DNA of 64,000 nt from Streptomyces globosus (GTDB lineage: Bacteria > Actinomycetota > Actinomycetes > Streptomycetales > Streptomycetaceae). Below the pieces are notes generated by a model. It did no database searches. It saw only the letters and a program-made list of their open reading frames with translations, and was not told the origin of the DNA. Both the position numbers and the translations under genes were made by a program. Within the stretch, counting starts at the first letter, position 1, and each line of letters opens with the position of its first letter. Below, piece by piece: positions 31,350-38,410 of the stretch. The DNA is taken from positions 5,709,501-5,773,500 of the forward strand of contig NZ_CP030862.1 of NCBI RefSeq assembly GCF_003325375.1, in the 5' to 3' direction.

Positions 31350-32171
31350 TTACGCGGCGGGACCTTCCGGCGCCTTCGCGTCGGCAGCCACGGCGGCCGT
31401 GGGTGGAGCGGCCGTGTCGGCCTCGCGGTCGGGCGCGAGCGGGTCGGTCACCGTGCCGGACTCCTCGTCGAAGAGCCCCTGCGCCAGCCTGGTCACCGCT
31501 GCGGGGACCGGCGGCGCCAGGTCGGCCACAGCTCGGAGACCGGACAGGACGTCGTCGGGTCGAACGGCAGGTGTCAGATGCCGAACAACCAGCCGCAGTA
31601 TCGCACAGGCACTGTCCGGCGTCCTATCAGCCGGCGAAGGAAGGACCTCCAGTGCCGCGACGGCGCCGCGGGTGTCGAAGGTGCGGATGCCGTTCTTGGT
31701 GCGGCGCTGCACCTCCACCTGCTCGGCGGCGAGGAAGGCCTCGGCCGCGCGCGCCGCGTCGCCGGAGTCGACCCCGTCGAGCCGCAGCTCCCACACGGAG
31801 GCGGTCAGGCGGTCCGCGAGGCCGGAGGTGCGGGCCTCGACGGCGTCGGTGATGTCGAGGCCGACCGGCATCGACTCGTCGAGCAGTTCGCGGAGCTTCT
31901 CCGGGTCGCGGGGCTCCGTGAGCGCGATCTCCAGGTACTCGGCCTCGCTGCCGGTGCCGGTCGGCGCGGCGTTCGCGTAGGAGACGCGGGGGTGGGGGGT
32001 GAAACCGGCCGAGTACGCCATCGGCACCTCGGCGCGGCGCAGGGCGCGTTCGAACGCGCGCTGGAAGTCGCGGTGGCTGGTGAACCGGAGGCGGCCGCGC
32101 TTGGTGTAGCGCAGTCGGATGCGCTGCACCACCGGTGCGGGGGGCGGGCCTTCGGGCTGTCGCTTGCCCAG
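31350..32171 (-). CDS. TIGR03936-type radical-SAM-associated protein (DUF2344)
   Basis: The conserved part starts VQRIRLRYTKRGRLRFTSHRD and continues with RAEVPMAYSAGFTPHPRVSYANAAPTGTG, seen in pieces, the DUF2344 signature. This domain usually follows, or is fused to, the TIGR03960 radical-SAM protein encoded here at 34860-36785, and the two probably act together; the reaction is unknown to me. The start is inferred to be CTG 32171 (reading GKRQPEGPPPAPV), because AAGGAG lies 8 nt upstream and no ATG or TTG is in a comparable position. ATG 32297 and GTG GTG before QRIRL are alternatives lacking a ribosome site. 273 residues; Ala-rich acidic C-terminus. Confidence 0.85.
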   Translation of the reverse strand: MGKRQPEGPPPAPVVQRIRLRYTKRGRLRFTSHRDFQRAFERALRRAEVPMAYSAGFTPHPRVSYANAAPTGTGSEAEYLEIALTEPRDPEKLRELLDESMPVGLDITDAVEARTSGLADRLTASVWELRLDGVDSGDAARAAEAFLAAEQVEVQRRTKNGIRTFDTRGAVAALEVLPSPADRTPDSACAILRLVVRHLTPAVRPDDVLSGLRAVADLAPPVPAAVTRLAQGLFDEESGTVTDPLAPDREADTAAPPTAAVAADAKAPEGPAA

Positions 32172-32360
32172 GGGTTCTTCTCCTTGTGCGGGGCTCCGCG
32201 GCTCGCGCGTCGCCCTGAGGTCCGGGGGACTGCCGGCCGTGCCCCGCTCCCCGGCTCGCCCCCGCCTCGGGGGGCGGGGGGTGCTCGGGGCGGGCATGCG
32301 GCCTGTGGCTGTCGTACTACCCAGATTACGCGCCCCTGACCTCGCCGGTTCCCGGGGCGG

Positions 32361-33248
32361 TCAGCCGAGGAGGACGCGGCGCACTTCTGCCCGCACCTGC
32401 CGGGCGGTGGTGCGCAGGGTGCGCCACGCGTCGCGCAGCACGTGCCCGACCGGGGTGAGGACGTACCGGTAGAGCTGCCGGCAGGGCCAGCCCGCCAGCA
32501 CCCATGCGGCCAGGGAGAGCCCCCGCCACAGGGCCCGGGCGATCCGGCCGGCCACGTGCCAGGCCCAGACGAGGACCTGCCACAGCGGCAGGAGGAGCAG
32601 CCGGTGGACGCCGCGGGCGACCCAGGCGACGGCCGTGCCGACGGGGACGAGGACCCACCGCCACACCGCCGCGGCGGTCCAGGCGGCCGCCCGCCCCACC
32701 GGAACGACGAGGTGGTCCCAGGCGGCGCGGAGCAGCCACAGCACCCCGCGGCCGGCCGGCGCGAGCGCGTACCGGTACACGGCCGAGGCCAGCCACAGCA
32801 CGCCCCGCCCGAGGGGGGCGAGCAGGTACCCGTACACGGCCCGGCCCAGCCATACGAGGCCTTGCCCGGTCGGGGCGATCAGCCAGCGGTGGCCGGTGGA
32901 GCCCAGCCACCGCAGGCCCCGCCCGAGGGGGGCGAGCAGGTACGCGTACAGGGCGCGGCCCGCGGGCGCGAGCAGGTACCGCCACAGCCCGACCCACGGC
33001 CAGACGAAGACCAGCTTGAGCAGGACGCCCAGCACCCACCCGGTGCCGCGGAGGACGGGCCCGAGGACGTGGGTCCACAGCGGCCCGAGCAGGTGCCGGT
33101 GCAGGGCCCGCGCCCCGGCGGCGAGCAGCTCCCACACCACCCGCACGGGCAGCACGACGAGCACGGCGACGATCTTGACGGGCACCCGGAGGACCCCGGT
33201 GAGGCAGCCTTCGCCCTGGCCGGCGGAGGGGCGTGTGACGCGTTCCAT
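32361..33248 (-). CDS. Membrane-associated protein of 19-residue tandem repeats
   Basis: 295 residues from ATG 33248 (MERVTRPSAGQGEGCL). After a hydrophobic N-terminal part (about 20-90), residues 103-235 are seven consecutive 19-residue units. Position 5 is always Pro, position 7 usually Gly, position 12 always Trp and position 19 usually Arg, as in YLLAPLGRGVLWLASAVYR. A truncated unit precedes (91-102) and another, YVLTPVGHVLRDAWRTLRT, follows. Each unit reads as a Trp/Leu-rich amphipathic helix with one Arg, suggesting a membrane-surface solenoid. I do not recognise the family. It lies between two halves of a radical-SAM pair on the same strand. Confidence 0.75.
   Translation of the reverse strand: MERVTRPSAGQGEGCLTGVLRVPVKIVAVLVVLPVRVVWELLAAGARALHRHLLGPLWTHVLGPVLRGTGWVLGVLLKLVFVWPWVGLWRYLLAPAGRALYAYLLAPLGRGLRWLGSTGHRWLIAPTGQGLVWLGRAVYGYLLAPLGRGVLWLASAVYRYALAPAGRGVLWLLRAAWDHLVVPVGRAAAWTAAAVWRWVLVPVGTAVAWVARGVHRLLLLPLWQVLVWAWHVAGRIARALWRGLSLAAWVLAGWPCRQLYRYVLTPVGHVLRDAWRTLRTTARQVRAEVRRVLLG
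32601..32942 (-). repeat. 57-bp coding tandem repeats
   Basis: Six in-register 57-bp units (19 codons each) encode residues 103-216 of the protein at 32361-33248. A seventh degenerate unit follows at 32544-32600. Some copies keep near-identical DNA, such as GGGGCGAGCAGGTAC at about 32816 and 32930, while others conserve only the protein pattern, so the array is old but still partly homogenised. Confidence 0.8.
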
Positions 33249-33267
33249 GCCCCCATGGACACAAGAA

Positions 33268-33294
33268 CGCCCCCGTGCCGTTGCAGCGGGGGCG
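33268..33294 (-). terminator. Terminator probably belonging to the radical-SAM gene, now displaced
   Basis: CGCCCCCG/CGGGGGCG forms an 8-bp stem followed on the minus strand by TTCTTGTG. If the recombinase insertion is removed, it lies about 90 bp beyond the stop of the radical-SAM gene, where its terminator would be expected. Confidence 0.5.
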
Positions 33295-33381
33295 CGGATC
33301 TTCACCGGGATCCCGTCGGCAGCCGGAGCACCTGCGGACGAGGCAGGCGCTCCGGGCTGATTCCGGGCGGGGCGGGAGGTC

Positions 33382-33396
33382 CTACTTGTTGACGAC
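33382..33396 (+). repeat. Left attachment-like repeat (attL)
   Basis: CTACTTGTTGACGAC, 14 of 15 bases identical to 34860-34874. It ends 6 bp before the GTG of the recombinase, the usual integrase-attP closeness. Confidence 0.65.
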
Positions 33397-33402
33397 GCTG
33401 GC

Positions 33403-34812
33403 GTGCACTGGAGAGAGCCGGACCTGGCGATGCTCGATGAGCTCCGGGGGGCCGAGAGCGCGCTTCCTGCGGATGCCCCGCGCGCCCTGATATCGGTGCG
33501 GCTGTCGGCGCTCACCGCGGACACCACGTCGCCTGTGCGCCAGGAGCTCGAACTGCGGCGCCTCGCCGGGGAACGAGGATTGCGCGTCGTGGGTGTGGCC
33601 AGGGACCTCAACGTCTCGGCCACCCGGGTCCCGCCTTGGCGGCGCAAGGAACTCGGGCGCTGGCTGAACGACCGCGTGCCGGAATTCGACGTGATCCTCT
33701 TCTGGACGATGGATCGGTTCGTCAGACGGGTGACCGACCTCAGCACCATGATCGATTGGTGCTCGGTCCATGGAAAGAACCTCGTCTCGAAGCACGACGC
33801 CATCGACCTCTCCACCTCGCTCGGCAAGGCCACGGCAGAACTCGTCAGCGCCCTGGCGGAGATCGAGACGGGTGGAACAAGGACCAGGGTGGCGAGCCTG
33901 TGGGACTACGCCAGGACGCAGTCGGACTGGCTCGTGGGGAAGCCGCCCTACGGGTACGCGACCGATGGCAGTGGGAAGCTGGTCATCGAGCCGCGAGCGC
34001 AGCGCGTGCTCCGGTGGTGCCACGGCGCAGCAGTGCGAGGAGTCTCGGCACGTCGCATGACCACCGTACTCAGCCGCGCCGGGGTCCCGACCGGCGGAGG
34101 CGGACAGTGGACGGCCAGCACGCTTCTGAGAAGGCTGCGGAACCCGGCACTGATGGGGCTCCGGGTCGCGGAGGACAAGGATGGCGGTACGCGCCGGTCC
34201 AGGATCGTCCGCGACAAGGCCGGCCTCCCTGTCCGCGTGGCGGACCCGATCTTCACGGAAGCCGAGTGGCGCACCCTCCAGACCGCCCTCGACCGGCGGA
34301 GCAAGTCGCAGCCCCATCGCCGCCCTCGCGGCGCGACCGCGTTCCTCGGGGTTCTGGTCTGCACGGACTGCGGCACGAACATGACCGTCCAACGGACTTC
34401 GGTGCAGGGCCGGACCTATGCCTACCTGCGCTGCCGGAGTTGTCCGGGCGGAGGTTTGGGCGCCCCCGATCCAGAGGCCGTGTACAGGGAGCTCCGAGGG
34501 CAGGCCGTAGCCGCGCTGGGTGCGCAGCCGGTACGCGTACGGGAGTACGTGCGCGGTAGCGCTGGCCCGCGACGGACCGAGCCGCATTGGGTCATCGCAG
34601 CGAACGGCGAGACCTTCGGACACCGCTGGGAACGCGAGGGCCAGGTCGTCATGGCCGAAGACCTGCGACGGGCTGGAGTCACCTGCCGGGTCCGTCGCAC
34701 GAAGGTCTCCCGGACCAGAGCACCCGAGGTCCGGGTCGAGCTCGCCATCCCGGCCGACGCCGAGGAACGCCTGATCATCAGGCAGGACGTCTTCTCGGAC
34801 CTGGTCCGTTGA
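33403..34812 (+). CDS. Large serine recombinase (phage-type integrase)
   Basis: 469 residues from GTG 33403; ATG 33430 is an equally possible start and neither has a clear ribosome site. The N-terminal resolvase domain has the nucleophile in VRLSALTADTTSPVRQ (Ser35), with the family context LFWTMDRFVRR and SALAEIE. It is followed by a Recombinase domain (VGKPPYGYATD, GGGQWTASTLLRRLRNPALMG) and a zinc ribbon (CTDCGTNM near 320, CRSC near 345) with a helical C-terminal tail. The type is that of TG1/phiBT1-like integrases. All expected domains are present and the frame is intact, so it could still be active. Codon use is a little less GC-biased than in the flanking genes. Confidence 0.93.
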   Translation: MHWREPDLAMLDELRGAESALPADAPRALISVRLSALTADTTSPVRQELELRRLAGERGLRVVGVARDLNVSATRVPPWRRKELGRWLNDRVPEFDVILFWTMDRFVRRVTDLSTMIDWCSVHGKNLVSKHDAIDLSTSLGKATAELVSALAEIETGGTRTRVASLWDYARTQSDWLVGKPPYGYATDGSGKLVIEPRAQRVLRWCHGAAVRGVSARRMTTVLSRAGVPTGGGGQWTASTLLRRLRNPALMGLRVAEDKDGGTRRSRIVRDKAGLPVRVADPIFTEAEWRTLQTALDRRSKSQPHRRPRGATAFLGVLVCTDCGTNMTVQRTSVQGRTYAYLRCRSCPGGGLGAPDPEAVYRELRGQAVAALGAQPVRVREYVRGSAGPRRTEPHWVIAANGETFGHRWEREGQVVMAEDLRRAGVTCRVRRTKVSRTRAPEVRVELAIPADAEERLIIRQDVFSDLVR

Positions 34813-34815
34813 CAC

Positions 34816-34846
34816 GTCGGCCCCGTCCTCGGTGGACGGGGCCGAC
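34816..34846 (+). terminator. Terminator of the serine recombinase gene
   Basis: GTCGGCCCCGTCC with its complement (13-bp stem, 5-nt loop) starts 4 bp after the recombinase stop and lies inside the element. Confidence 0.75.
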
Positions 34847-34859
34847 GGAGCGGGCACTG

Positions 34860-36785
<1,926 letters not shown>

Positions 36786-36868
36786 CACGCGACTTTCGTG
36801 AAGCGGGCAGGGGGCGACTCTCTAGCGTAACCCGAGGGGCCGGGCCCGCCGGACGGTGTGATCACCAC

Positions 36869-38410
36869 CTACGGGCGGAGGCCCTTCCCGGGTGCCCGGC
36901 GCGAGACCTTGTCCCAAAGGTGCGGAAGGTCGCGTTCGCTCTGGGCGGCCAGGGCGTCCTCGCGGGCGTAGAGGACGCCCCAGGTGAAGGCGTTCTCGCA
37001 GGCCGCGGCAGCCTGGATGGAGAGGTCGCGCAGGGCTTCGCGGGCGACGACGCCGTCCTGGTGGTCGCCGAGGAGGGTCTGGACGGCCTTGAGGTCCTTG
37101 CGCAGGCGCTTGGCCGGCTTGCCGAGCACCGGTACGGCCGCCTCGGCGGCGTAGCGGGCCCGTTTGGCCGCCTTGCGGGCGGAGTGCAGGGCGAGGTCGC
37201 GGTCGGGGCCGGGGTCGAGGGCGAGGGCGTCGGCGATGCGGCCGGCGAGGCGGTCGTACTCGCGGCGGACGGCCTTGGCGAGGACGGGCCCGGCGGGCTT
37301 GCCGGCGGCGTGGAGCAGCGGCGGGTCGGCGAGCAGGGCGTCGAGGGAGTCGAGGAGGGCGAGCTGGCGGGGGTCGTCGAGGGCGGAGAGGGCGCGGCGG
37401 CGGGATTCGGCGCGGCGGCCGTTGTTCCAGGTGCGCAGGCGGCCGCGGACGGGTCCGAGGAGGAGCGGGTGCGGGAGTTCGCCGATGCGGGTGCGGAAGC
37501 GTTCGTGGAGGACTTCCTGGTCGCGGTCGACGCCGAGTTCGCGGGCGAGCCGGCGGAGCTCGTCGCCGAGGGGGTCGGTGGCCGTGGGGTCGAGGACCTT
37601 GCGGTGGGTCTTGAGGGCGCTGCGCAGGCGCCGGCTGGCGACGCGCATCTGGTGGACGGCGTCGGGGAGGTCGCGGCGGACGGCGGGGTCGAGGGCGACG
37701 AGGGCGTCGCGCTGTTCCCGGAGGAAGGCGAGGACGTAGGCGCCCGCGGTGCCGTCGCCCCAGTCGGGGCGGGGTGGTGGGGTGGCGGCGGCGCCGGTCT
37801 CGGCGAGGGCGCGGGCGAGTTTGGAGGGGCTGTCGGAGGCCCGGATGCCGGCTTTGCGGAACTTCTTCTGGACGGCGTCGAGGAGGGAGGGGTCGGTGCC
37901 GTCGGCGAGTTCGACTTCGATCTCGGTCCAGTCGGCGGTGGCGGCGGCGGGGTCTTCGGCCTGCCGGGATTCGGCGTGGACGGTGTCGGTGGAGAGCTCG
38001 GCGAGGAGGGCGCCGTCGGCGTCGAGGAGGTGGCGGATCCGGCGGGTGGAGCGGAGCCGGACCAGCGGGACGAGGTCGGCGTCGCGGGCGCGGGAGCGGA
38101 CGAGGGCGGCGAGGTGGCGGGGGACGGTGTCGGAGAGGGGGGCGCCGATCTCGTCGCGGACGCCCGGGGAGACGGGCAGTTTGAGGTGCCAGCCGGCGTC
38201 GGGGCCGCCGGTGCGGCGGCGCAGGGTGACGCCGTCCGCGGCGAGCCGCTGGTCGGGGGTGTCGTAGTAGACGGCGTCGAGGTCGGCGGTGCCGCGGTCG
38301 GCGACGGCGGCGATTCCCGCGGTGCCGGTCAGGTCGGGAACGCCGCGCTGTTCGGCCTCGTCCGTCGTGAACTCGAATTTGCGTTCGATTTCGCGTTTCG
38401 TGTCCGCCAT
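36869..38410 (-). CDS. CYTH and CHAD domain protein
   Basis: 513 residues. The N-terminal CYTH domain begins with EIERKF (about 7-12) and has alternating charged beta strands (VYYDTPDQRLAADGVTLRRR, TEIEVELADG). The C-terminal CHAD domain (about 215-500) is helical and His/Arg-rich (HQMRVASRRLRSALKTHR, ALHSARKAAKRARYAAE). CYTH domains hydrolyse tri- or polyphosphate with divalent metals and CHAD domains bind polyphosphate, so a polyphosphate-related role is likely. It stands alone on the minus strand between the radical-SAM gene and rodA. Confidence 0.92.
   Translation of the reverse strand: MADTKREIERKFEFTTDEAEQRGVPDLTGTAGIAAVADRGTADLDAVYYDTPDQRLAADGVTLRRRTGGPDAGWHLKLPVSPGVRDEIGAPLSDTVPRHLAALVRSRARDADLVPLVRLRSTRRIRHLLDADGALLAELSTDTVHAESRQAEDPAAATADWTEIEVELADGTDPSLLDAVQKKFRKAGIRASDSPSKLARALAETGAAATPPPRPDWGDGTAGAYVLAFLREQRDALVALDPAVRRDLPDAVHQMRVASRRLRSALKTHRKVLDPTATDPLGDELRRLARELGVDRDQEVLHERFRTRIGELPHPLLLGPVRGRLRTWNNGRRAESRRRALSALDDPRQLALLDSLDALLADPPLLHAAGKPAGPVLAKAVRREYDRLAGRIADALALDPGPDRDLALHSARKAAKRARYAAEAAVPVLGKPAKRLRKDLKAVQTLLGDHQDGVVAREALRDLSIQAAAACENAFTWGVLYAREDALAAQSERDLPHLWDKVSRRAPGKGLRP

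Follow-up and report, generated by a model that had tools for sequence, protein, structure and literature searches.

The 64-kb stretch of Streptomyces globosus DNA analysed here (hereafter the window) carries what is very probably an inactivated copy of an element made up of an integrase gene and nothing else, belonging to the phiJoe/SCO2603 family of large serine recombinases. From comparison with related genomes, a probability of about 0.88 is given to a history in which the element integrated, displaced the end of its target gene and later lost some 140 bp. phiJoe and the SCO2603-type elements insert 74 bp before the end of a SCO2606-like radical-SAM gene, with the crossover predicted at GG (Fogg et al. 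2017, PMC5311408). A sequence-only reading of the locus had placed the phiJoe attB at SCO2603, and whilst it was right that the site is a hotspot, that name belongs to the integrase of the S. coelicolor element; the gene targeted is SCO2606 (Fogg et al. 2017, PMC5311408).

The locus and its target gene

Two copies of a 15-bp repeat, CTACTTGTT[G/C]ACGAC, which differ at one base (33382-33396 and 34860-34874), bracket a single plausible gene, which lies on the forward strand at 33403-34812 and encodes a serine recombinase of 469 aa. The repeat occurs only at these two places in the 64 kb, against 0.12 occurrences expected from shuffles, thus it is not a product of chance. The integrase is followed by a strong hairpin and then by a convergent radical-SAM gene on the reverse strand (34860-36788), the integration target, which is SCO2606-like and B12-binding, has Pfam matches to Radical_SAM_N2 and Radical_SAM and is still an open reading frame. 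Both copies of the repeat read VVNK-stop, the right one being the 3' end of the radical-SAM gene. To this extent the sequence-only reading holds, as it does in taking the element for a serine integrase and no more: the test for a prophage found no structural, replication or lysis genes, with only the integrase between the att sites, and an empty counterpart exists in a related genome, G267.

The hairpin (34815-34847), described before as the integrase's own terminator, has perfect arms of 14 bp, z of -4.8 and -4.7 on the two strands and a position between convergent genes, is conserved in genomes G057 and G215, and is likely a two-way terminator. Paired base changes are seen in it between window and G057 on one side and G215 on the other (window 34815-34847; L031 2912-2947; L032 3055-3092). 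The left neighbour of the element, at 32361-33249 on the reverse strand, codes for a protein that appears membrane-associated and is built of repeats, with YLLAPLGRGLxWL-like units recurring in it, and here the flanks of relatives align in shifted registers.

Among 393 genomes of the genus the closest relative is G267 (98% in the radical-SAM region), which is a sister species and not the same strain, its empty site serving as a close proxy. In G267 the window positions 31886-33396 and 34857-38328 adjoin, collinear on both flanks, and the 15-mer is present once, where they meet. The left copy in the window is identical to the native gene end of G267 and has the same place beside the left flank. 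Along the radical-SAM gene the window and G267 differ at 15 of 73 bases from the stop to the core, against 30 of 1827 beyond the core (Fisher p=1.9e-11), which argues that the gene end now in the window arrived with the element. As the divergence is confined to this 73-bp tail and ends at the phiJoe core, the comparison places the integration crossover at CTGAGG (34929-34934), 73 bp inside the radical-SAM gene. The crossover block, CTGAGGACAG at 34929-34938, is the attR core, with a phiJoe-type GG at 34933-34934, and so the element sits about 74 bp before the end of a SCO2606-like gene as the phiJoe and SCO2603 elements do.

The replacement gene end (QLGLDIQIGPTGKKLLPLTVVNK*, reverse strand, 34860-34932) carries a GLDIQ/DLDIQ signature common to the elements of G057, G130 and G436; the native gene ends of empty relatives read xxTxIQ and are without it. 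With the left copy equal to the native end of G267 and the right end of the element's type, the two copies of the repeat are the pieces nearest the stop in two homologous gene ends, of which the element supplied one and displaced the other. The right copy is thus part of the element-borne end rather than an att core, and the left copy consists of the final 15 bp (VVNK*) of the native end that was displaced.

The attL cores of G057 (L031 1408-1420) and G436 (L110, reverse strand, near 1408-1420) read CTGCGA and not CTGNGG. With GA where phiJoe has GG, either these sites are decayed or the true crossover is offset by 1-3 bp; put otherwise, the GG crossover predicted for phiJoe may have no match in the integrase-only elements, or both sites may have decayed. 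The discrepancy leaves intact the placement of the crossover some 70 bp from the 15-bp repeat.

The integrase and what it has lost

The phiJoe integrase is the first phage match of the window protein by tblastn (50% identity over 99% of the length), and tblastn together with the tree places it in the phiJoe/SCO2603 family, as do Pfam and PHROG matches, alignment and structure models. No relative above 60% identity was found among phages, plasmids and viral contigs. The protein had been said to have all the expected domains, and those of the Resolvase (PF00239), Recombinase (PF07508) and Zn-ribbon (PF13408) are indeed present, with the catalytic serine (the family-invariant S35 in RLS) and the zinc cysteines C320, C323, C344 and C347 kept, but the coiled coil expected in the zinc domain is absent. 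Compared with relatives of 514-519 aa the window integrase lacks 49 aa, a coiled-coil hairpin, after about residue 388 (34564-34578, forward strand). When the phiJoe coiled coil (A395-T453) is mapped onto it only 10 of 59 columns are left, and where the model of the G215 integrase has helices at 386-405 and 416-435, that of the window has a loop with pLDDT <50, both models being of moderate quality (mean pLDDT about 73). Elsewhere in the same genome (C1:1080807-1081742, reverse strand) there is a distant serine integrase pseudogene of 28% identity with one TAG.

Nor is the integrase intact at its other end, as had been supposed, for it has also lost its native start codon together with some 14 codons of the N terminus, leaving 469 aa from a secondary GTG. 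On the left side G057 and G215 retain the displaced gene end with the core and the attP arm, and their integrase begins at ATGAAGAA, some 14 codons before the window GTG, whilst in the window the 15-bp stub joins the integrase directly. The scar at 33396-33403 marks the loss of about 140 bp, which comprised the remainder of the displaced gene end together with the attL core and attP arm, and the start codon and ribosome-binding site of the integrase; the region is present in G057 and G215, its core-side part in G436 and the attP arm in phiJoe. There is no in-frame start before the GTG at 33403, and the nearest GGAGG is about 23 nt away. Of the two att ends thought to have been kept only attR is found, the attL core and attP arm having gone with the deleted region, while the G215 element has both attL and attR.

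A further part is missing from the locus. A profile of the gp52-like recombination directionality factor (RDF) finds the gene beside attR in 8 of the 9 other phiJoe-family element genomes tested, and at the same sensitivity it finds nothing in the genomes of the window, G057, G130, G215 and G436. An RDF encoded elsewhere in the window genome was considered and rejected: searches with single sequences gave only weak matches (best E 0.07) and the profile gave none. Another very small element of the phiJoe family is seen in G385 (L044) and in S. albus NRRL B-1811 (L069), with 265 bp from integrase to gene end and a displaced end that lies roughly 750 bp upstream of its integrase; the RDF search of the G385 genome gave no match, and this may be a second line without RDF.

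The window shares with phiJoe int-attP (KX815338; PMC5311408) its integrase family (50%), its target gene, a crossover some 74 bp short of the gene end and an integrase beside attP, but it is without phage genes, gp52-like RDF, coiled coil (phiJoe A395-T453) and attL. With attL, coiled coil and RDF all missing, the excision of a 1.48-kb circle that had been thought possible appears unlikely by any normal route, and the window copy, which has since lost its attL, is most likely inert. What stands against this is a reading frame that is open and has been under purifying selection, so that a protein could still be made from the GTG at 33403 and have some role.

A clade of integrase-only elements

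The window is not the only place where this compact layout is found. The distance from the integrase stop to the gene end is 48 bp in the window, 49 bp in G057, 53 bp in G215 and 45 bp in G436, the last being from a different genus, and in a tree of 59 integrases these four group together as a single clade (100/100). The layout recurs in G130, where the integrase is broken and the coiled-coil loss differs in length; G130 is placed in the clade by its architecture, having been left out of the integrase tree. Its relic (L061, 750-1693) has an internal deletion of the integrase besides the differing coiled-coil loss, which suggests the coiled coil was lost repeatedly among the integrase-only elements. 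From layout and tree, the integrase-only state is a heritable form of the element, carried by a monophyletic clade without RDF (window, G057, G215 and G436, with G130 as a relic by architecture), and its spread appears to have been horizontal.

The G215 element (L032/L143) is a full-length counterpart, from the same clade and with the same order of displaced gene end, core, attP arm, integrase, hairpin and new gene end; it differs from the window in its full-length integrase of 515 aa with a coiled coil, in its start codon and in its two att sites. The SCO2603 element of S. coelicolor and the elements described as having recombination genes only (for example in NRRL F-5123; Fogg 2017) have the same attB and integrase family and are likewise very small. 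The SCO2603-type small elements are described with an RDF gene next to attR, whereas the window clade has none and, with 45-53 bp, no room for one. A literature search found nothing on solo integrases among serine recombinases.

It could be argued that the insertion is old, having passed vertically from an ancestor that window and G057 share and having since been precisely excised from every empty species between them. The integrase dS of 0.53 between these two, larger than the 0.33-0.36 of the radical-SAM gene, gives no sign of a very recent exchange and so fits such a history. However, the species between the window and G057 lack the element at this site, and their precise loss of it would need an RDF, which is absent. 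In the flank tree, made with FastTree, the window groups with G267, G348 and G215 and G057 falls elsewhere, yet in the integrase tree window and G057 group together, a pairing of window with G215 being rejected (p-AU 0.0001); an ancestral insertion is for these reasons considered improbable. The displaced ends match the relatives of each host, that of G215 reading MQTEIQ like G055 and G243 and that of G057 MDTQIQ like G392, therefore these are separate insertions.

Decay of a prophage or larger element, with its cargo lost independently in the window genome, is a quite improbable origin. Other phiJoe-family elements at the site do carry 0.3-20 kb beyond the integrase, most of them with an RDF, but the layout shared by window, G057, G215 and G436 (integrase stop, then a hairpin, with the gene end following at 45-53 bp) and their single clade mean that any loss of cargo preceded the window insertion.

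The idea that the 15-bp repeat is the att core, flanking a complete integrase able to leave as a 1.48-kb circle, draws on the non-chance nature of the repeat and on its single copy at the flank join of G267. It is highly unlikely, since the differences from the empty site cover the 73 bp on the right-hand side of the repeat and end at the phiJoe core, the stretch of displaced gene end, core and attP arm seen in G057 and G215 is missing from the window, and coiled coil and RDF are missing too. The uninterrupted site of G267 differs from the join that the sequence-only reading had predicted, and in G057 the recombinase occurs with no left 15-bp repeat beside it, which are the two observations that this reading had itself named as refuting; excision at the repeat was ruled out by the comparison with G267. 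Equally hard to credit is a coiled-coil-less protein kept for a host function, for whilst the frame is open with an overall dN/dS of 0.24 that falls to 0.11 in the catalytic domain, the gene is rare and patchy, stems from separate insertions in unrelated hosts, has lost its native start in the window, and would show such a dN/dS from selection whilst mobile.

Proposed arrival, decay and loss of direction control

In the favoured reading, that of an inactivated integrase-only element, recombination between attP and attB would have brought the element in at the CTGAGG core, 73 bp from the 3' end of the SCO2606-like gene. The native 73-bp end would thereby have been moved to the other side of the element, and the target reading frame would have stayed open because attP carried a substitute 3' end. 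A later loss of about 140 bp at the integrase-proximal end would then have removed the native start along with attL and the attP arm, leaving the VVNK* stub. In an element lineage without RDF, the coiled coil would have been lost before the insertion in the window, because G057 has the same deletion. Family, site, crossover position, displaced end and deletions can be read directly from the sequence, as can the lack of an RDF at the sensitivity used; we infer both the order of events and that the window copy is no longer able to excise.

The window and G057 share exactly the same coiled-coil deletion, yet they are separate insertions in unrelated hosts, and between them the integrase has a dN/dS of 0.24, with 0.69 in the C-terminal part. 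For these reasons the simplest reading is probably that the coiled-coil-less form was mobile and under selection, whilst the pattern may instead stem from deletions that arose in parallel, or from a full-length relative that acted in trans to integrate the element. Sampling covered 393 Streptomyces genomes and part of the family. A second search of 393 genomes of the genus, apparently the same sample, gave no coiled-coil-less copy beyond G057, and a scan of GTDB contigs for this form gave only Streptomyces sp. ms191, which is possibly G057 itself.

Published large serine integrases without a coiled coil include engineered mutants of LI and phiC31, whereas that of the window is a natural protein. 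The LI integrase so deleted recombines without RDF at 1.6% for attBxattP and 2.2% for attLxattR, and phiC31 integrase is inactive once its coiled coil is deleted (PMC10754689). The phiJoe integrase shows unusual basal excision without RDF. The large resolvases TnpX and TndX (Fogg 2017) also mobilise without a separate RDF, though they are carried by larger integrative elements and are likened to the window by description. Given the RDF-free activity of LI and the basal excision of phiJoe, loss of the RDF followed by loss of the coiled coil in the window/G057 branch could have yielded low-rate excision and integration with no partner, a minimal bidirectional unit some 1.6 kb long, and the window copy would be a recently killed example; this is a tentative suggestion, and on balance a doubtful one.

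Such a unit is now testable from the published LI precedent and the set of window, G057 and G215. Window and G057 provide natural integrases without coiled coil or RDF that have been kept under purifying selection, and G215 a full-length counterpart with both att sites. The window copy itself is of lesser weight, being probably inert, but it shows how these elements die and leave the target gene with a new 3' end. Its relatives suggest that the enzyme still moved after losing two parts that normally control direction, which bears on how the directionality of serine integrases evolves, on their natural function without coiled coil or RDF, and through this on their use as tools for genome engineering.
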